Source of the DNA: Metabacillus dongyingensis
Lineage (GTDB): Bacteria > Bacillota > Bacilli > Bacillales > Bacillaceae
DNA: 64,000 nt
Assembly (NCBI RefSeq): GCF_019933155.2
Contig: NZ_CP082944.1
Span: forward strand, 4,342,001 to 4,406,000
Direction of reading: 5' to 3'
A program made the position numbers and the translations under genes. The notes beneath the pieces were generated by a model that searched no databases, was not told the origin of the DNA, and worked only from the letters and a program-made list of their open reading frames with translations. Position 1 is the first letter of the stretch; each line of letters starts with the position of its first letter. Below are positions 13,950 through 60,660 of the stretch, in pieces.

Positions 13950-16892
<2,943 letters not shown>

Positions 16893-21459: not shown

Positions 21460-21580
21460 ACCTTTCTCTCATCTTTCAAAACTGAATAACAGCTTTGAGT
21501 GAATTGGCACCTTTTCAATAAAATTGACGGTTGCCGGGCTTCGCAGGGCACTTTCCCTCCACCTCTCTGGATAAGAGACT
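21460..21580 (-). promoter_or_regulatory. SAM (S-box) riboswitch upstream of metNIQ
   Basis: On the minus strand the conserved S-box blocks appear in order: CTCTTATCCAGAGAGGTGGA, GGGA, GCCCTGCGAAGCCCGGCAAC, GGTGCCAATTC and a closing GATGAGAG that pairs with the start. A terminator follows. Known logic: SAM binding favours termination, so methionine uptake is expressed when SAM is low. Confidence 0.95.
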
Positions 21581-23070: not shown

Positions 23071-23185
23071 TCTCTTCTTATCTTCCAGAGCATTCTAACC
23101 TGCTCTGATGGAATTGGCACCGTGTTGCAATAACCGGTTGCCGGGCTTCACAGGGCCAAGTCCCTCCACCTCTCTTGATAAGATT
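23071..23185 (-). promoter_or_regulatory. SAM (S-box) riboswitch upstream of the sulfhydrylase
   Basis: Minus-strand blocks CTTATCAAGAGAGGTGGA, GGGAC, GCCCTGTGAAGCCCGGCAAC, GGTGCCAATTCC and a closing GAAGATAAGA that pairs with the 5' end. Same class as the metN leader. Confidence 0.95.
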
Positions 23186-45788: not shown

Positions 45789-45817
45789 GATTTTTTAAGA
45801 TCACATTAGTTTCATTA

Positions 45818-45958
45818 TCCTCTCTCAAGAACGCTTGCGAAGTTAGCTGTCGGGTTCGGGCAATGAGAGTAGCCCTACCAGTAAAGGATTCACCCCAAGC
45901 TGCAAAAGATGCCAGCAAAATTGGGTCCCCCGCTCCGTAATGGATTAAGCGAATTAAG
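45818..45958 (-). promoter_or_regulatory. Cyclic di-AMP (ydaO/yuaA) riboswitch upstream of ktrAB
   Basis: Minus-strand blocks in family order: CGCTTAATCC, GGAGCGGGGGACCCAAT, TTGGGGTGAATCC, GGTAGGGC, ACTCTC, GCCCGAACCCGACAGCTAA, CTTCGCAAGCGT and a closing GAGAGAGG. High c-di-AMP is known to favour termination, shutting off K+ import. Confidence 0.95.
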
Positions 45959-45974
45959 AATATCTGAAATGTAT

Positions 45975-47812: not shown

Positions 47813-47848
47813 ATTCGTCAATTTGAATAATTATAACATTTCCACAGA

Positions 47849-47980
47849 TGAGTCTCTCCACCGCATACGAGGTTAGCTGTCGGATTCGGACGAAGAGTGT
47901 CCTACCTTTTGACCATAAAGGATTCACCCCAGTGCAACTGCACAGTTTGGTTCCCCCGTTCCCATTTTAGGATTAAGCGT
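47849..47980 (-). promoter_or_regulatory. Cyclic di-AMP (ydaO/yuaA) riboswitch upstream of the DAACS symporter
   Basis: Minus-strand blocks ACGCTTAATCC, GGGAACGGGGGAACCAAA, TGGGGTGAATCC, GGTAGGAC, ACTCT, GTCCGAATCCGACAGCTAA, CCTCGTATGCGG and GGAGAGAC. ACCCAAT of the consensus is AACCAAA here and GGGC/GCCC became GGAC/GTCC, a compensated change. A strong terminator follows. Confidence 0.93.
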
Positions 47981-48107
47981 ATATTTATTAAGTTATACTA
48001 CTATTCTAAATACAAGATTTAATTTTTGCAAATATAAAAATTTGCCTTTAATTGGATTTGAACATAAAATTTAGCAAAAAACGTTCTTACTTTAAGGAGT
48101 TTTAACC

Positions 48108-51273: not shown

Positions 51274-51459
51274 AATCTCGGTGAGGTAGAGGTTGCACCA
51301 ATTAAGAGTAGATTGCAAGAGGCTAGTGGAGCTGTTGACTGCAAATTCGAAAGGACTTGGTGCCGAAGTTTGAAACAGCCACTTTGTTTCTTGCTGGGAC
51401 TGTATCGAATAGGTACTGGACTGCCACAGAGAATCTGTGGAGTGCTATCATGAGATTTT
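51274..51459 (+). promoter_or_regulatory. Lysine (L-box) riboswitch
   Basis: Conserved blocks in order: AATCTCGGTGAGGTAGAGGT, AAGAGTA, GGACTTGGTGCCGAAG, GCTGGGACTGT, GTACTGGACTGCCAC, GAGTGCTATCATGAGATT. The ends pair (AATCTC with GAGATT). It is followed by a terminator and an APC permease gene. Confidence 0.93.
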
Positions 51460-53020: not shown

Positions 53021-53048
53021 AAGGCTGCATGTTGAATGCAGCCTTTTT
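53021..53048. terminator. Bidirectional terminator between the APC permease and CBS gene
   Basis: Arms AAGGCTGCAT/ATGCAGCCTT with TTTTTT on the plus strand. On the minus strand it adjoins the CBS gene stop codon and so may also end the kdp operon. Confidence 0.85.
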
Positions 53049-53461
53049 TAATTCTTTTTCCCCAAAAGCTGAGCTGCGCAATATTCAATAATTTCCCTTC
53101 TTCTGATTATACCTATAAAGATTCCCTTATCGTCTGTAACAGGTACGAAATTCTGTTCCATCGCCCTTGTAATAATGTTCTCCATTTCAGCATGAATGGA
53201 TATTGGTTCATTCTTTCGATGGTAATTAAGATCAGTTAATCGGATTTTTTCTGTGTTATGAAAATGCAAATCAGGTGTGTTTTTCAGCATCCACAGCAAA
53301 TCACCTTCTGTAAGTGTTGTTACGTACTTCCCCTCATCATCAAGCAGCGGAACGGCTGAATAACGGTGATATTCCATTCGTTCAAGCGCCTGCCTCATGG
53401 TGGCATAAATGTTTAAATAAACAACTTCCTTTTTGGGTATAAGGAAAAAAGCAATATTCAT
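53048..53461 (-). CDS. CBS-domain protein at the end of the kdp operon
   Basis: 137 aa with two CBS motifs: about 18-70 (VYLNIYATMRQALERMEYHR, AVPLLDDEGKYVTTLTEGDL) and about 82-135 (MENIITRAMEQNFVPVTDDK, FIGIIRRREI). The pair would form one Bateman module, which usually binds adenine nucleotides. CbpB/DarB-type CBS proteins bind c-di-AMP, so a nucleotide-sensing role in K+ control is an attractive guess. It follows kdpD by 15 bp in the same direction. Confidence 0.85.
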   Translation of the reverse strand: MNIAFFLIPKKEVVYLNIYATMRQALERMEYHRYSAVPLLDDEGKYVTTLTEGDLLWMLKNTPDLHFHNTEKIRLTDLNYHRKNEPISIHAEMENIITRAMEQNFVPVTDDKGIFIGIIRRREIIEYCAAQLLGKKN

Positions 53462-53476
53462 TTCTCCTGAACTCCT

Positions 53477-54628
53477 TTAAGATCGTCCATCTGACACGAT
53501 GTGAATATCAATATTCTCTGTCTTTCTCATTATGGTATTCACAATGGAACCCTTTCTAATTTCTTCCCATCTTGTTCTTGCTGACTGACCGAGAAGGATT
53601 TGTGTAATGTGATACTGCTTAGCAATATCAATAATGACCTGAGCGGGTTTGCGGCTGCCTTCCTGCTCCAGCAAAAATACAGCATTAAATTGAGAGGCAA
53701 GTATTTTCCATTGCTCCGTTCTTTCCCGTTTTTCCTGTGAAAACGCCTCAGGGGAATTCTTCGTTACATTCAGAATATACAACTGAGCTTTTAGCCGGTT
53801 CGCCATCCGCCATCCTCTTCTGATTAATTTTTCAGCAGTTGGCCCATACCCGACACATACAAGGATTTTTTCATGAACACCTATTGGACCATACACTAAA
53901 TTCCCGCTGATCTGCTCTATTTTTTCGTCTACATCATCTGCTACTTCTCTCAAGGCAAGTTCTCTTAGGGATGATAAATTGGTTACTGTAAAAAAATGAG
54001 TAAGGCTTTGCTCAATTTTTTCCGAGGCATATATTTTCCCATCTGCCAGCCGCTTCCGAAGGGTTTCAGGAGTGACATCAATGAGCTGAATTTCATGAGC
54101 ATCCTGAACAAATAAATCCGGCACTCTTTCTCTCACTGCCACTCCCGTTATTTGCTGTACAATGTCGTGAACGCTTTCTAGATGCTGGATGTTTACCGCA
54201 GACATCACATTAATGCCGGCATTTAAAATTTCTTCTACATCCATATATCTCTTTTTATTTTTTGAGCCCGGAATGTTGGTATGGGCCAGCTCATCAATCA
54301 CAATGACTTTAGGCATTCTTTGTATGATGGCATCTACATTCAATTCTCTAAAAATACTTCCTTTATAATTCATCTCTTTCAGAGGAACCACTTCAATATC
54401 TTTAATCAGTTCCTCTGTTTCTTTTCTCCCGTGGCATTCGATCAGACCGATTGCAACATCTATTCCTTCCAGCTTTAAATCATAGGCATCCTGGAGCATT
54501 TTATAAGATTTCCCGACACCAGGTGCTGCACCGACATAAAGCTTCAGCTTTCCCCGCTTTTCTTCAGCAATTTCATTAAGAAGCTCCTGCGGGGTTTTTC
54601 GTCTGAAATAAGGGTGTTTTTCACTCAT
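53477..54628 (-). CDS. kdpD: Short KdpD: N-terminal sensor and USP domains only
   Basis: 383 aa from ATG 54628 (AGAGGTGATGA upstream). The KdpD domain (about 20-230) has Walker A GAAPGVGKS and VIVIDELAHTNIPGS. A universal-stress-protein domain (about 240-380) follows. The four membrane helices and histidine-kinase core of full KdpD (about 890 aa) are absent, and the protein ends cleanly at a stop codon. No kdpE is present. In Staphylococcus the KdpD USP domain binds c-di-AMP; here the comparable loop reads VCVGYGP and I do not see an SxS motif. It may regulate KdpFABC directly. Confidence 0.9.
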   Translation of the reverse strand: MSEKHPYFRRKTPQELLNEIAEEKRGKLKLYVGAAPGVGKSYKMLQDAYDLKLEGIDVAIGLIECHGRKETEELIKDIEVVPLKEMNYKGSIFRELNVDAIIQRMPKVIVIDELAHTNIPGSKNKKRYMDVEEILNAGINVMSAVNIQHLESVHDIVQQITGVAVRERVPDLFVQDAHEIQLIDVTPETLRKRLADGKIYASEKIEQSLTHFFTVTNLSSLRELALREVADDVDEKIEQISGNLVYGPIGVHEKILVCVGYGPTAEKLIRRGWRMANRLKAQLYILNVTKNSPEAFSQEKRERTEQWKILASQFNAVFLLEQEGSRKPAQVIIDIAKQYHITQILLGQSARTRWEEIRKGSIVNTIMRKTENIDIHIVSDGRS

Positions 54629-54687
54629 TTCATCACCTCTGAAAAGTTGAATGACCTCAGCTGAATAGAAGCTGAGGTGCATCATCG

Positions 54688-55272
54688 TTAGTTCAACATA
54701 TTTTTTAAAGCCAGATTTAATTGAAGAACGTTTACCTTCTCTTCACCAAACATTCCAAGTTCCCTTCCTTGAGTATGCTGCTTGATCATGTTTTCAAGCT
54801 TTGATTGATCAATTCCAGTTGCTTTTGAAATACGTTTCACCTGAGCATATGCGGCACCCGGGCTGATATGAGGATCAAGCCCCGAGCCTGAATTCGTCAG
54901 CAGATCATTTGGCACTTCACTTACTGGCGTTTCCGGGTTGTTTTTCTTCCATTCTTCAATCGAATCCAGCGTGCGCTTTATCATATCTGCATTAGATGGT
55001 GCATAGTTGTTGGAACCTGACCCCGCACCATTATTTTCAATGCTTGAAATTCTGCCATGAAAATAGCTGTCCGCGCTGAATGATTGCCCGATAAGCTCAG
55101 AGCCTATTACATTCATATTCTCATCATATACTAAGCTGCCATTTGCCTTTGCTGGAGAAATGGTTTGAGCGATTCCTGTCACAGCCACTGGGTAAATTAT
55201 GCCGCAAATCACCATTAAGAATAAACTCATTCTGATGATCGGACCCATAATTGATTGTTTTTCTTCCATCAT
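54688..55272 (-). CDS. kdpC: Potassium-transporting ATPase subunit KdpC
   Basis: 194 aa. One N-terminal membrane helix (about 12-32), then an extracytoplasmic domain with GSELIGQSFSADSYFHGRIS, NYAPSNADM and the family C-terminal GSGLDPHISPGAAYAQVKRI. KdpC assists K+ transfer and complex stability in KdpFABC. It is followed by the short kdpD. Confidence 0.95.
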   Translation of the reverse strand: MMEEKQSIMGPIIRMSLFLMVICGIIYPVAVTGIAQTISPAKANGSLVYDENMNVIGSELIGQSFSADSYFHGRISSIENNGAGSGSNNYAPSNADMIKRTLDSIEEWKKNNPETPVSEVPNDLLTNSGSGLDPHISPGAAYAQVKRISKATGIDQSKLENMIKQHTQGRELGMFGEEKVNVLQLNLALKNMLN

Positions 55273-55305: not shown

Positions 55306-57429
55306 TTACAAAATCAGAGCAAGAACAACATCAATTCCTTTGATTCCAATAAAGGGAACCAGCACTCCCCCAAGTCCGTAAATTAGAAGATTTCTGCTCA
55401 GCAAAGCATTCGAACTCATCGGTTTGTAGCTGACACCTTTCATTGCGAAAGGAATCAAGACGGGAATGATAATGGCATTGAATATCAAGGCTGACAGAAT
55501 CGCTGAAATCGGTGAGTCCAGTCTCATGATATTCAGCACATTCATTTCAGGTATGGCAAGCATGAACATAGCCGGAATAATGGCAAAATATTTCGCGATA
55601 TCGTTGGCAATACTGAACGTTGTCAGAGCTCCTCGCGTCATCAGCAGCTGTTTGCCGATGGAGACTACTTCAATTATTTTCGTAGGATTCGAATCTAAAT
55701 CCACCATATTGGCTGCTTCCTTGGCAGCTGCTGTTCCGCTGTTCATGGCAAGGCCTACATCTGCCTGTGCGAGAGCCGGGGCATCATTTGTTCCATCTCC
55801 AGTCATGGCAACAAGCTTGCCTTGTGATTGTTCATATTTAATGACTTCAATTTTATCCTCAGGCTTGCACTCTGCGATAAATTCATCAACACCTGCTTCT
55901 TTAGCGATCGTTGCTGCTGTTAGCGGATTGTCTCCTGTACACATGACGGTTTTGATCCCCATGCTGCGCAGCTTATCAAAGCGCTCTTTCATGCCCGGTT
56001 TAACCGTATCCTTCAAGTAAATCAAACCAAAAATCTGATCGTTCATCGCAACAGCAAGAGGCGTGCCTCCCGCCTTTGAAATTTCATCTGTTTTTTTGTC
56101 TAAATCAGAAGGAATGGTTCCCCCTTGGGAGATTACCCATTTCTTAACGGCATCTACTGCTCCTTTTCTGACAACACTTCCATCAGCAAGATCCATTCCG
56201 CTCATCCGCGTTTCCGCCTTAAACTCGATAAACGTTCCGCCTATCGCGATATCTGTTTGATAGGAAAGCTGTTTCTTTTTCAGCAGTTCAAGGACAGATC
56301 TTCCTTCTGGTGTCTCATCTTCAAGCGAGCTGATGGCTGTCCACTGAGCCAAATCCTGCATGGCATGATTTCCTGCCGGAATAAACTCGCTTGCCATCCG
56401 GTTTCCAAAAGTTATCGTTCCGGTTTTATCCAAGATAATTGTATTAATGTCTCCAGCCGCTTCAACCGCTTTCCCTGACATCGCAATCACATTAAACTGT
56501 GTAACCCGATCCATCCCTGCTATTCCGATGGCAGAAAGCAGACCGCCAATGGTTGTTGGAATTAAGCACACAAGCAGGGCAATTAATACGGGAATCTCAA
56601 GCTCAAATCCCAAGTAATTTGTGAAAAAAGGCAATGTGACAACCACGATCATAAAAATGAGCGTCAGACTTGTTAAAACCGTGTTCAATGCAATTTCATT
56701 CGGTGTTTTTTGACGCTGTGCTCCCTCAACAAGGGAAATCATCTTATCAAGGAATGATTCACCAGGATCACTCGTGATTCTTACTTTGATCTGGTCACTG
56801 ACAACTTTTGTGCCCCCTGTAACGGAGTTGAAATCTCCGCCAGCCTCCTTAATCACAGGTGCAGATTCTCCTGTAATTGCTGACTCATCTACAGAAGCGA
56901 GGCCAGAAATGATTTCTCCATCACCTGGAATAAACTCACCTTGTGATACGACAACTATATCCCCTTTACGGAGCGAGGCAGAGTCTGTTTTTTCAATTTC
57001 GCCATTAGGCTTTAATTTGTTTGCAGTCATTTCCTTTTTTGAATTCTTAAGAGAATTTGCCTGGGCCATTCCTCTCCCTTCTGCAAGTGCTTCTGCAAAA
57101 TTCGCAAACAAAACGGTAAACAGAAGGATGAGGGACACTGTTAAATTAAACCAGACATTTACTTCACTTGACCCAAAAGCAGAAGGGATAAAGGCAAGCA
57201 GCAAAGTAAGGGCAAATCCAATTTCTACAATGAACATGATCGGGTTTTTCACCATTACCCGAGGATCCAATTTGAAAAAGGATGCCTTGATGGCGTTTCC
57301 GATCAGTTCCTTTTCCATCGCCTTTTTGTTTGCAGGCTTTTGATCATTAGGCTGGATTTGTTTAACTGGGGCCTTGCGTTCATATCTTTCAGCAGATTTT
57401 TCTGCTGCTGCTAAAAATGGCTTACTCAT
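55306..57429 (-). CDS. kdpB: Potassium-transporting ATPase ATP-binding subunit KdpB
   Basis: 707 aa P-type ATPase, slightly longer than usual at the basic N-terminus. The phosphorylation site is Asp in [17 protein letters not shown] in the actuator domain, [18 protein letters not shown] and [15 protein letters not shown] are intact. It hydrolyses ATP to drive high-affinity K+ uptake through KdpA. The TGES serine that is a known phosphorylation-inhibition site is kept. Confidence 0.97.
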
Positions 57430-57450: not shown

Positions 57451-59127
57451 TTATAAAGTTAATAGCTCAGCAACCGGTCCCAGAACCAAAACCGGGAAGA
57501 ATGTCAGAGCACCGACAATAAATATGGCTCCTACAAAAATGGTTCCAAACAAGCCAGTGTCTGTACGGAATGTACCTATCGTCTCCGGCACAAGCTTTTT
57601 GGCGGCCATTGATGCTCCTACAGCAAGCATGGCAATGATTCCAAAATATCTGCCTATAAACATGACAATACCGGTTGAGATGTTCCAAAACGGTGTTGCA
57701 TCACCGAGACCTTCAAAGCCTGAACCATTATTGGCAGCAGAAGATGTGTACTCATAAAGAACTTGGGAAAGCCCGTGAAATCCAGGATTTGATATACCGT
57801 CAGATCCAAGCGGTGTAAATAAAGCAACAGCTGTTGAAGCAAGGATCAAGAAAGGATGAATAAGCAGTGTCACAGCGATCAGCTTCATTTCTTTACCTTC
57901 AATTTTCTTGCCAAGGAATTCCGGAGTGCGGCCTACCATTAACCCTGATAAGAAAACGGCTATGATCGCATACATCATAATGTTCATGAACCCTGCGCCA
58001 ATTCCGCCGAAAACGGTATTCAGCAGCATGTTGGATAAAGCAAGCATTCCTGTTATTGGCGAAAGCGTATCGTGCATCGTGTTGACTGCCCCTGTTTCAG
58101 ACGCCGTTGTTACAATAGCGTAAAGGGTTGACTGTACCGTACCGAAACGAACCTCTTTTCCTTCCATACTGCCGGAAGACTGCTCAAGGCCTGCTTCTGC
58201 AAATCTGGGATTCCCCTGAAATTCTGAGAATAGGGCCGTTCCAAGAAAGACAACGAAAATCATGGCCATCGCCGCGAATAGAATTCTTCCCTGTTTAGCA
58301 TTTCCGACCATTTTTCCGTAGGTAAACGGAAGAGCTGCCGGAATTAAAAGCATCAATAGAATTTGCAGGAGGTTGCTCATCGCATTTGGGTTTTCAAACG
58401 GATGTGCTGAGTTTACTCCGAAGAACCCCCCGCCATTGTTTCCAACTTCCTTAATTGATAAAAACGATGCAACAGGTCCTCTTGCGATCGTTTGCTCGGC
58501 TCCTTCCACCGTTGTGGCCGTGACACTTGAATCAAGTGTTTGCGGAACCCCAAGAAAGACGAATATCAGTGCAGTAATAAAAGCAATCGGTAAAAGCACA
58601 CGTGTAATTGATCTTATTAAATCTACAAAGAAGTTTCCAAGCGGATTCCCTGCGAGTCCTCTTATTAACGCAATTGCAGCCGCAAATGCAGTTGCAGGAG
58701 CCACGAACATCATAAACGTAATGGCGATCATCTGAGACATATAGGATAATCCGCTTTCTCCGCTGTAATGCTGAAGATTCGTGTTTGTCATAAAGCTGAT
58801 TGCTGTATTAAAAGCAAGGGTGGGCTCCATCCCTGCTATGCCGCTTGGATTCAGCGGCAGAATGCCTTGAAAACGAAAGACGAGATAGACAAGAAAAATC
58901 ATAAAAATGTTCGAAAATAATAGTGCCATTGCATATTGCCTGAAGCTTTGGTTTTGCTGTTTTAATCCGCTGACTTTATAAACAGCATTTTCCACCGGGC
59001 CAAACACGGCATCCAGTTTAGTAGATTGATAAGTAAAGGCTCGGGCTATATAGTAGCCCATCGGCTTTGCCAGAAGCACAGCCATCGTCAAAGTAAGAAT
59101 GATAGAAATGATGGATATTACGCTCAA
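57451..59127 (-). CDS. kdpA: Potassium-transporting ATPase channel subunit KdpA
   Basis: 558 aa, ten helices, a K+-channel-like superfamily protein. Filter-type loops appear as SFMTNTNLQHYSGESGL, GNNGGGFFGVNSAHPFENPN, ETGAVNTMHD and SAANNGSGFEGLG. GxG-like segments are intact. The gene starts 18 bp after the kdpF stop codon and is followed by kdpB after 21 bp. Confidence 0.97.
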   Translation of the reverse strand: MSVISIISIILTLTMAVLLAKPMGYYIARAFTYQSTKLDAVFGPVENAVYKVSGLKQQNQSFRQYAMALLFSNIFMIFLVYLVFRFQGILPLNPSGIAGMEPTLAFNTAISFMTNTNLQHYSGESGLSYMSQMIAITFMMFVAPATAFAAAIALIRGLAGNPLGNFFVDLIRSITRVLLPIAFITALIFVFLGVPQTLDSSVTATTVEGAEQTIARGPVASFLSIKEVGNNGGGFFGVNSAHPFENPNAMSNLLQILLMLLIPAALPFTYGKMVGNAKQGRILFAAMAMIFVVFLGTALFSEFQGNPRFAEAGLEQSSGSMEGKEVRFGTVQSTLYAIVTTASETGAVNTMHDTLSPITGMLALSNMLLNTVFGGIGAGFMNIMMYAIIAVFLSGLMVGRTPEFLGKKIEGKEMKLIAVTLLIHPFLILASTAVALFTPLGSDGISNPGFHGLSQVLYEYTSSAANNGSGFEGLGDATPFWNISTGIVMFIGRYFGIIAMLAVGASMAAKKLVPETIGTFRTDTGLFGTIFVGAIFIVGALTFFPVLVLGPVAELLTL

Positions 59128-59145: not shown

Positions 59146-59226
59146 TTAAAATTTTTCTGGATTTACTAACGCATACAATAAATAAATCGTGACAGCAGCG
59201 ATGCCGCCCATTAAGACAATCATCAT
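59146..59226 (-). CDS. kdpF: KdpF small membrane subunit
   Basis: 26 aa, MMIVLMGGIAAVTIYLLYAL then VNPEKF. A single hydrophobic helix ending in the LVNPEKF-type tail is diagnostic of KdpF, which stabilises KdpABC. AAGAAGGAAGGGAAGAGAA precedes the ATG. Its start overlaps the stop codon of the preceding 35-aa ORF by 4 bases (ATGA). Confidence 0.92.
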   Translation of the reverse strand: MMIVLMGGIAAVTIYLLYALVNPEKF

Positions 59227-59330
59227 TTCTCTTCCCTTCCTTCTTTCACAAGCTCTCCAGACCATTTAACAAACCCGGCCATGGCAAGTGTAAGTGCTGT
59301 AAATGAGATGATCATTATACTGTCAAGCAT
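59223..59330 (-). CDS. Small single-helix membrane protein upstream of kdpF
   Basis: 35 aa: MLDSIMIISFTALTLAMAGF, then VKWSGELVKEGREEK. One membrane helix with a charged cytoplasmic tail. AAGGGGGAACG lies before the ATG, and the stop codon overlaps kdpF by 4 bp, a tight operon arrangement. It is a second small Kdp-linked peptide; I know of no assigned function. It could be a KdpF-like accessory subunit or a leader that couples translation. Confidence 0.75.
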   Translation of the reverse strand: MLDSIMIISFTALTLAMAGFVKWSGELVKEGREEK

Positions 59331-59717
59331 CGTCGTTCCCCCTTGTTCTTACTGAAGAAAAAATCGCAAAAACCTGTTTTGTTAGCTCCAATCCATGCAT
59401 TAAGTTTTATCGGGCACCTTGCGTTTTTTGTAATAACTGTGACCGGGAACGTGAACAATCGCATGAAGCCAAGCACTAGTATCGGCTATCATGTCCACGT
59501 GCTGTAAAGCTCGTGTAATTTGCTGGTGTATGATTAGAAAATGAGCATTTTGTCTATTAAAATAAATGTCTTTATATCCTCTTTTTTTGCAAATGACTCT
59601 GCACACGATAATTACCCGTTATAAAATGCAGGTGATAATTCTTCCGGGCAAATACCATCCGGGCATTCAAACCCTTAATAGCCATGTGAGCATTGCATTC
59701 TCTTCCTTTCGCTAACA
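59331..59717 (-). other. Long kdp leader between the last terminator and the first ORF
   Basis: About 385 nt of transcribed leader. It includes two overlapping minus-strand frames (59572-59784 and 59400-59606) with no family resemblance and no good ribosome sites. One of them runs through the riboswitch terminator. I regard it as untranslated leader or a relic. Confidence 0.4.
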
Positions 59718-59755
59718 TAAAAAGCCGCGGAAGAGGGATCTCTTCCGCGGCTTTT
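59718..59755 (-). terminator. Terminator of kdp riboswitch 3 (gene-proximal)
   Basis: Arms AAAGCCGCGGAAGA/TCTTCCGCGGCTTT followed on the minus strand by TTTATG. Confidence 0.88.
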
Positions 59756-59798: not shown

Positions 59799-59937
59799 TC
59801 CCTCACAACGCTTTCGGGGTTAGCTGTCGGATTCGGGCTATGAGAGTAGCCCTACCATTTTTTCAATGGACTCACCCCCTAGTGATAGAAATCACAAAAG
59901 ATTGGGTCCCCCGATTTCCTTAAGAAATTAAGCGATT
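59799..59937 (-). promoter_or_regulatory. Cyclic di-AMP riboswitch 3 of the kdp leader (proximal)
   Basis: Minus-strand blocks TCGCTTAATT, AAATCGGGGGACCCAAT, GGGGGTGAGTCC, GGTAGGGC, ACTCTC, GCCCGAATCCGACAGCTAA, CCCCGAAAGCGT. The closing P1 is weaker than in copy 2. A strong terminator lies 45 nt downstream. Confidence 0.93.
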
Positions 59938-59982
59938 AGGTTTTTTAAAAAAATATTCAATTCATTTACACTAAAAATGCAC

Positions 59983-60016
59983 ACAAAAGAACACTGAGGC
60001 ATAAACCCAGTGTTCT
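59983..60016 (-). terminator. Terminator of kdp riboswitch 2 (middle)
   Basis: Arms AGAACACTG/CAGTGTTCT with a 10-nt loop, followed on the minus strand by TTTGTGTG. Confidence 0.85.
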
Positions 60017-60028
60017 CCACAAAGGTAT

Positions 60029-60176
60029 CCTCTCTCAGAACGCTTACGAAGTTAGCTGTCGGATTCGGGCATCTTTGAGAGTAGCCCTACCACTTGAACA
60101 TTCAAATGGACTCACCCCTAGTGACACTTAGTCACAAAATCTTGGGTCCCCCGCTCCTAATTTAGGATTAAGCGAT
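60029..60176 (-). promoter_or_regulatory. Cyclic di-AMP riboswitch 2 of the kdp leader (middle)
   Basis: Minus-strand blocks TCGCTTAATCC, GGAGCGGGGGACCCAA, AGGGGTGAGTCC, GGTAGGGC, ACTCTC, GCCCGAATCCGACAGCTAA, CTTCGTAAGCGT, GAGAGAGG. All core blocks are intact. Confidence 0.94.
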
Positions 60177-60219
60177 TAATAGGAATTCTATTTTTAAAAA
60201 TCGTTTGACCGTGCACCGT

Positions 60220-60368
60220 CCCTTCTCTTATGACGCTTACGAGGTTAGCTGCCGGGTTAGGGCCTAAGAGTTGCCCCTCTTGCACTTTCTGCGTCGATTC
60301 ACCCCAAAGTGCCTTCATCACACCTATGTGGGTCCCCCGCTCCTTATCAGGATTAAGCGATTATGAGA
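60220..60368 (-). promoter_or_regulatory. Cyclic di-AMP riboswitch 1 of the kdp leader (distal)
   Basis: Minus-strand blocks TCTCATAATCGCTTAATCC, GGAGCGGGGGACCCAC, TGGGGTGAATC, GAGGGGC, ACTCT, GCCCTAACCCGGCAGCTAA, CCTCGTAAGCGT, ATAAGAGA. GCCCGAAYCCGACAG is altered to GCCCTAACCCGGCAG, so ligand affinity may differ. No clear terminator follows; the next 40 nt on the minus strand hold only a weak stem and ATTTTT. Confidence 0.88.
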
Positions 60369-60660
60369 GTAATATTACTCCTGTGGCTGAAACTTGTAAA
60401 GAACTTAAAAAGCACGAAATTTCTCAAAAAACAAGTAAATACCCTTATATCTTTGCAAATTTCAAAGGAAATATGACCCTTACTAACTAATTCATCATTT
60501 TCCTTCTGAATACATATCAATCAGAAATAATGATTGATTTTTTCCAAAGATTACATAAAAACCATTTCGCTTTATAAATGCAGTCAAACTATTAAGATTT
60601 TCATAGGGAAAACATATTATTAAAATCAAAAAAATTAGAAATAACATTATGATATACATA
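60369..60660. other. Gene-free interval, probable kdp promoter region
   Basis: AT-rich, no gene. The kdp promoter should lie here on the minus strand, ahead of riboswitch 1, but no pair of good -35 and -10 boxes stands out. Confidence 0.4.

Follow-up and report, generated by a model that had tools for sequence, protein, structure and literature searches.

Three tandem c-di-AMP-type aptamers and two terminators in the kdp leader of Metabacillus dongyingensis

The second messenger c-di-AMP controls K+ and osmotic balance. In Bacillus thuringiensis, a single c-di-AMP riboswitch turns the kdp operon off by intrinsic termination, c-di-AMP drops under K+ limitation, and the operon carries a truncated kdpD and, according to the available part of the source, no kdpE (PMC6488665). 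The kdp leader of Metabacillus dongyingensis raises the question of how one operon might be governed by three aptamers of this kind. A sequence-only reading of the locus, which cited the B. thuringiensis precedent in agreement with the published account (PMC6488665), had proposed three complete ydaO-type aptamers lying head to tail on the kdp leader strand and had suggested counting separate RF00379 matches with Infernal. Here the array is examined in the window, the whole 64,000-nucleotide stretch of the genome that was analysed, and in kdp leaders across the order.

A cmscan of the whole window returned three separate full-length RF00379 matches (model 1-134), all on the minus strand, inside 575 bases and far over the gathering score (89.1-102.2 bits against 38), and the proposed arrangement is thus borne out. 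By covariance model, A1, A2, and A3 are c-di-AMP-type aptamers. They would be transcribed in the order A1, A2, A3, followed by kdpF, and A2 and A3 are separated by 80 nt (Table 1). A search of the whole genome gave these three again and six RF00379 copies altogether: the three of the array, two more in the window, and one elsewhere. A single congener (G005) was found with the same contiguous array; three further congeners (G001, G003, and G004) serve below for comparison.

Table 1. Features of the kdp locus and other riboswitches in the window
Feature	Position	Strand	Evidence or remark
Predicted kdp promoter	60400-60372	-	-35 TTTACA 60400-60395, 17-nt spacer, -10 TAATAT 60377-60372
Perfect 14-bp palindrome GAGTAATATTACTC over the kdp -10 box	60367-60380		read directly
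Aptamer A1, promoter-proximal and kdp-distal	60369-60218	-	RF00379 89.1 bits, E 1.6e-19
A1-A2 junction, 33 nt	60217-60185	-	no recognisable terminator; 23/33 aligned letters same in G005
Aptamer A2	60184-60025	-	RF00379 94.6 bits, E 4.8e-21
Terminator T2, after A2	60016-59988	-	AGAACACTGGGTTTATGCCTCAGTGTTCT then TTTGTGTG, -16.2 kcal/mol
Aptamer A3, kdp-proximal	59944-59795	-	RF00379 102.2 bits, E 3.7e-23
Terminator T3, after A3	59754-59721	-	-27.4 kcal/mol
Spacer, ~390 nt, remains of a small ORF broken across frames	59331-59720	-	three-frame translation
35-aa small ORF before kdpF	59223-59330	-	tblastn matches in 6/14 loci searched, 40-74% identity over all 35 aa
kdpF	59146-59226	-	PF09604 29.6 bits
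kdpA	57451-59127	-	PF03814 770.9 bits
kdpB	55306-57429	-	ORF; 91% identical to syntenic G005 gene
kdpC	54688-55272	-	ORF; synteny
Truncated kdpD (kdpD'), KdpD sensor and Usp domains	53477-54685	-	PF02702 306.5 bits, PF00582 39.3 bits
CBS-pair protein gene, 15 bp 3' of kdpD'	53048-53461	-	PF00571, two stretches
c-di-AMP riboswitch	47847-47989	-	before sodium:dicarboxylate symporter gene
c-di-AMP riboswitch	45817-45961	-	before TrkA-domain (ktrC-like) gene with ktrD-like neighbour
Lysine riboswitch	51279-51455	+	before amino-acid permease-like ORF (by eye)
SAM riboswitch	23075-23184	-	
SAM riboswitch	21466-21577	-	

The location of the array is that of a K+-uptake leader, with kdpF-A-B-C downstream on the same strand; the names kdpB and kdpC are those that we take these ORFs to merit from knowledge of the operon, along with synteny. 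The product of kdpD' has no Pfam domains besides PF02702 and PF00582, and no other KdpD sensor domain in the genome exceeds the cut-off, the sole further PF02702 match scoring 20.9 bits. The CBS-pair gene probably belongs to the same operon as kdpD'. Three genes with a diadenylate-cyclase domain are present in the genome. The small ORF whose remains lie in the spacer between T3 and kdpF is open in all four congeners, and a protein of G001 that resembles the remnant by eye matches TrkA-N weakly, at a score under the cut-off; the 35-aa ORF has no Pfam match. Outside the kdp locus, a canonical c-di-AMP aptamer in G003, and also in G004, precedes an ORF that presumably encodes a glutamine synthetase (L042:15253-15382 and 15494-16840, both on the plus strand); in G005 the aptamer is retained and the ORF is reduced to a fragment.

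The placement of the terminators gives the array its shape. As the sequence-only reading had it, the middle and proximal copies are each followed by a terminator, T2 and T3, and none was found after A1. T2 is the weaker of the two because its U-tract is interrupted, with TTTGTGTG standing 3' of the stem. T2 is of a short type resembling the terminator of the ktrC riboswitch in Table 1, and its stem is kept in G005; T3 is of the GGAAGAG...CTCTTCC type seen 3' of many kdp-proximal copies, and its stem in G005 is preserved through the swap of a G-C for an A-T pair. No hairpin with a U-tract was found in the A1-A2 junction of either species. Because only two terminators were found, by hairpin criteria A1 lacks its own platform, and the notion of serial terminators forming one gate per aptamer does not agree with two terminators for three aptamers. 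By the same criteria, the locus differs from a pseudo-cooperative tandem, in which a platform follows every aptamer, and other kinds of platform would be possible after A1; what it does contain, in A1-A2-T2, is two adjacent aptamers of the same class before one terminator, joined by a 33-nt junction. Folding lends no support to the switching step, since in duplex folding no antiterminator pairing was better than that of shuffled strands (shuffles as good in 144/300 for the A2 region with T2, 88/300 for A3 with T3, and 191/300 for A1 with T2), nor did any pairing peculiar to A1-A2 emerge. The possibility that the A1-A2 junction encodes a leader peptide was rejected, because in G005 a stop comes directly after the would-be GTG (by eye).

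How common such leaders are was assessed through a KdpA (PF03814) search of 397 genomes of the order and 80 genomes of the family, which yielded 71 kdp leaders. Same-strand aptamers up to 2.6 kb from kdpA (L106, L117, and L124 cover less than 2.6 kb) were counted with an nhmmer profile based on 39 aptamers, of which five belong to the window; the KdpA rows of G342 (~560 bp upstream), G413 (two pieces), G125 (partial), G127, G269, and G294 (23-26 bits), and G029:C5 and G013 (below the cut-off) were excluded. RF00379-like aptamers are present in 69 of the 71 leaders, more than the 12 species of the B. thuringiensis paper (PMC6488665), with one copy in 46, two in 19, and three in 4. The contiguous complete triple occurs in 2 of the 71, M. 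dongyingensis and G005, both of one genus, and the earlier judgment that a triple ydaO array is remarkable survives this survey of related genomes. In the two other triples, a doublet is separated from the third aptamer by an HPr-like ORF (G040), or the middle copy reaches only 30 bits, below the cut-off (G388). In a contig collection of 84,980 species, which may lack the M. dongyingensis genome and those near it, one exact doublet pattern occurs at 18 loci, 9 of them with kdpA in the 8-kb stretch examined. A third aptamer lies ~360-370 bases beyond the doublet in Halalkalibacter alkalisediminis (L052) and Alkalihalobacillus bogoriensis (L065), the latter scoring the same as L037 of G040. Pattern scans run on 398 genomes from the class matched 0 and 2 genomes and say little, because the patterns miss the array of the window itself. 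Two side observations concern these leaders. HPr-like ORFs lie inside multi-aptamer kdp leaders at L037:7510-7848 (minus strand, by eye) and L052:5142-5420 (plus strand, PTS-HPr 24.9 bits). In addition, 35 of the 71 leaders, from several families, carry a divergent RF00379 subtype recognised as a class of low nhmmer score; the one copy aligned, L041:16070-16208 (minus strand, 82.8 bits), ends in CAGCTAACTTCGTCGGCTAAAGCGAA and lacks the usual GUAGGGCUACUCU side helix.

Terminators were counted in 19 of the 23 leaders with at least two aptamers, leaving aside G001, G003, and G004, which pair the divergent subtype with one canonical copy, and G205, whose copies lie 1051 bases apart. A terminator follows the last of the adjacent canonical copies in 19/19 leaders and the first in 4/19, at both -9 and -12 kcal/mol; dinucleotide-shuffled controls gave 5/190 after the first and 11/190 after the last at -12 kcal/mol, and 10/190 and 41/190 at -9. 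Two of the 15 terminator-less first copies have weak hairpins (G411, -7.5; G040, -6.1), and first copies of this kind recur in several families. This is the opposite of what is described for 77 c-di-AMP doublets before all kinds of genes, most of which appear, in the part of the survey available, to have a terminator between the aptamers (PMC9481103). Because terminator-less first copies are common (15/19, vs 0/19 for last copies), an arrangement of a two-aptamer, one-terminator unit plus a separate riboswitch is favored. Judged from sequence, the leader of M. dongyingensis is therefore read, with moderate confidence, as a paired-aptamer unit, A1-A2-T2, followed in series by an ordinary riboswitch, A3-T3, for OFF control of kdp.

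Three independent gates would require A1 to act without a hairpin terminator, through pausing, Rho-dependent termination, or RNA cleavage. The full conserved core of A1 would suit such a role, as would the doublets of G178 and G099, which have a terminator after each copy, and the 3' tail of A1 ends in a G-rich GGTG element, as do those of most other terminator-less first copies (by eye). However, the GGTG element also stands 3' of the terminator-bearing first copy of G178, the 33-nt junction is free of a hairpin with a U-tract in both species, and no positive sign of another platform was seen. We regard three gates as rather unlikely.

The paired-aptamer reading gives A1 a function, and A1 is the copy that might be thought degenerate. 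It has the lowest score of the three, the UA that usually precedes GGGC is missing, and its side helix is poorly matched in both species. Its core reads GCCCTAACCCGGCAG in place of GCCCGAATCCGACAG, and that of A1 in G005 reads GCCCGAACCCGACAG. The sequence-only reading was right that the distal copy has changed letters in its core, but the changes fall at variable positions: in different canonical aptamers, T stands at the first in 13/142, C at the second in 23/142, and G at the third in 4/142. None of 45 near-invariant columns deviates in A1, A2, or A3. When the columns were recomputed as those at least 95% conserved in 135 sequences outside both arrays, they again numbered 45. Between M. dongyingensis and G005, 0/45 of these columns differ in any of the three copies, while other columns differ at 30/93 in A1, 19/97 in A2, and 18/96 in A3; at the rate of the other columns, the chance of 0/45 in A1 is 2.4e-8. 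Fourfold sites differ at 140/266 in kdpA and 163/299 in kdpB (53-55%). Since no near-invariant column has changed despite this divergence, all three copies are probably functional, and they look to have been maintained over a long time; the hint of a degenerate A1 is contradicted by this conservation. The same comparison bears on the idea that A1 is a relic or a decoy, binding c-di-AMP or nothing and having no effect on kdp, so that the leader is effectively a doublet. The low score and the irregular features of A1 are what such a relic might show, but a core kept intact since the split from G005 and the recurrence of terminator-less first copies in several families make this distinctly unlikely.

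Both units of the paired-aptamer reading are expected to lie on one transcript. The predicted promoter would start transcription at ~60365, ~6 nt 5' of the first A1 helix. A consensus scan gave 7 sites against 4.7 expected by chance and is weak evidence when taken alone; the same -35 box and 17-nt spacing, with TAATAT or TAAGAT, recur in all four congeners (by eye), and in G001, G003, and G004 the matching promoter stands 5' of a different aptamer. The palindrome over the -10 box, a possible candidate operator or repressor site, is identical in G005 and is not palindromic in the other three. If kdp were instead expressed mainly from a promoter between T2 and A3, A1-A2-T2 would govern a short separate RNA and A3-T3 alone would govern kdp. 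The T2-A3 part of the A2-A3 gap is AT-rich, but the consensus scan places no minus-strand promoter in it, and in G001, G003, and G004 what lies 5' of the matching aptamer is the tail of a gene, the recognised promoter preceding the upstream aptamer as it precedes A1 here; an internal promoter is highly improbable. We give barely any weight to the proposal that A1 binds a changed ligand, or a single c-di-AMP, and lets the leader integrate a different signal: the UA before GGGC deviates in 10/14 terminator-less first copies (12 from kdp leaders and 2 from other leaders, with G040, G160, and G411 not included) against 0/14 of their partners and 22/114 other aptamers, but all near-invariant columns are intact and the sequences, being related, do not count as independent, for which reason the pattern is a lead and not a test.

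The copies appear to differ in age. In the tree, A1 pairs with A1 of G005 (support 99/97), the two A2 copies pair (75/90), and A3 falls into a clade with the kdp-proximal copies of G005, G001, G003, and G004 (100/99). In the last three congeners, the same promoter is followed by the divergent RF00379 subtype, a small gene, and a single canonical aptamer. Because that aptamer groups with A3, A3 is probably the older, kdp-proximal copy, and A1-A2 probably stand where those congeners have the divergent aptamer. The tree is compatible with a common origin of A1, A2, and A3 but does not show it (AU test, p 0.367), and the same is true of one clade uniting eight first copies that lack a terminator (p 0.186). 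All six copies from L037 and L052 fall into one clade (96/91), apart from those of the window, which suggests that those arrays arose separately.

In the paired-aptamer model, kdpFABC-kdpD'-CBS would be transcribed from the promoter directly 5' of A1, and the RNA would cross two c-di-AMP OFF units, the first made of two aptamers sharing T2 and the second a single-aptamer riboswitch ending in T3. When K+ is sufficient, c-di-AMP would be high and the aptamers occupied, T2 and then T3 would form, and kdp would be off; when K+ is scarce, c-di-AMP would fall, both terminators would be read through, and the pump would be made. We infer the ligand, the OFF direction, and the role of K+ from the B. 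thuringiensis kdp riboswitch, and the layout points to A1 acting through T2. Because two gates multiply their leaks, the off state would be very low, and the pump would probably be shut very tightly when potassium is plentiful. With assumed Hill values, the computed leak at 10x K falls from 2.5e-2 for one gate to 6e-4 for two and 1.5e-5 for three (h=1.6), and the 90-10% span narrows from 15.6-fold to 10.0-fold and 8.8-fold; for a cooperative pair (h=3.2) plus a single gate it is 5.8-fold. This arithmetic shows low leak to be the main gain that serial gates would bring. The sequence-only reading had expected a steeper or multi-threshold OFF response; of these, a steeper response is reasonable on the model, and multiple thresholds have no direct support.

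Pairing with A2 would allow A1 to steepen or shift the first gate. It is tentatively conceivable, and rather doubtful, that A1-A2-T2 is a cooperative four-ligand OFF switch, with A1 its specialised partner that lacks a platform, in series with an independent third riboswitch. The tandem glycine riboswitch has two aptamers that share one platform, as A1-A2-T2 would; its ligand and fold are different, and cooperation between A1 and A2 is putative. That system is mentioned in a 2022 survey of tandem riboswitches, which, in the part available, names triplets for other classes and none for c-di-AMP (PMC9481103). The 77 doublets of the survey are likewise tandems of the c-di-AMP class, some of them without a strong intervening terminator, for which four-ligand cooperativity was suggested (PMC9481103); the present leader differs in that a third, complete riboswitch comes after the terminator-less pair. 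The kdpFABC leader of B. thuringiensis BMB171 has the same aptamer family, operon, intrinsic terminator, and truncated kdpD after kdpC, but one aptamer and one terminator, in contrast to the three and two found here, where a CBS-protein gene also follows kdpD' (PMC6488665). The triple-tandem c-di-GMP-I leader of B. thuringiensis CT-43 likewise places three same-class aptamers in one leader; there each aptamer has its own platform and the switches are ON switches, whereas here no platform of A1 was found and OFF control is expected (PMC4759541). Serial c-di-GMP riboswitches are described as more stringent and digital (PMC4759541). Thus c-di-AMP doublets are already published, and no c-di-AMP triplet was found in print by a literature search that missed many subscription papers.

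Whether two adjacent c-di-AMP aptamers cooperate is a question raised by the 2022 survey and, in the part available, left unanswered there (PMC9481103). The kdp leader of M. dongyingensis is a natural test of it, and of what extra terminator-less aptamers do. The comparison across the order shows that the first of adjacent canonical copies in kdp leaders is usually without a terminator. If the cooperative reading is true, this leader would combine cooperative and pseudo-cooperative control, and the succession of aptamer, aptamer, and terminator would be how kdp leaders of this bacterial order are generally built.
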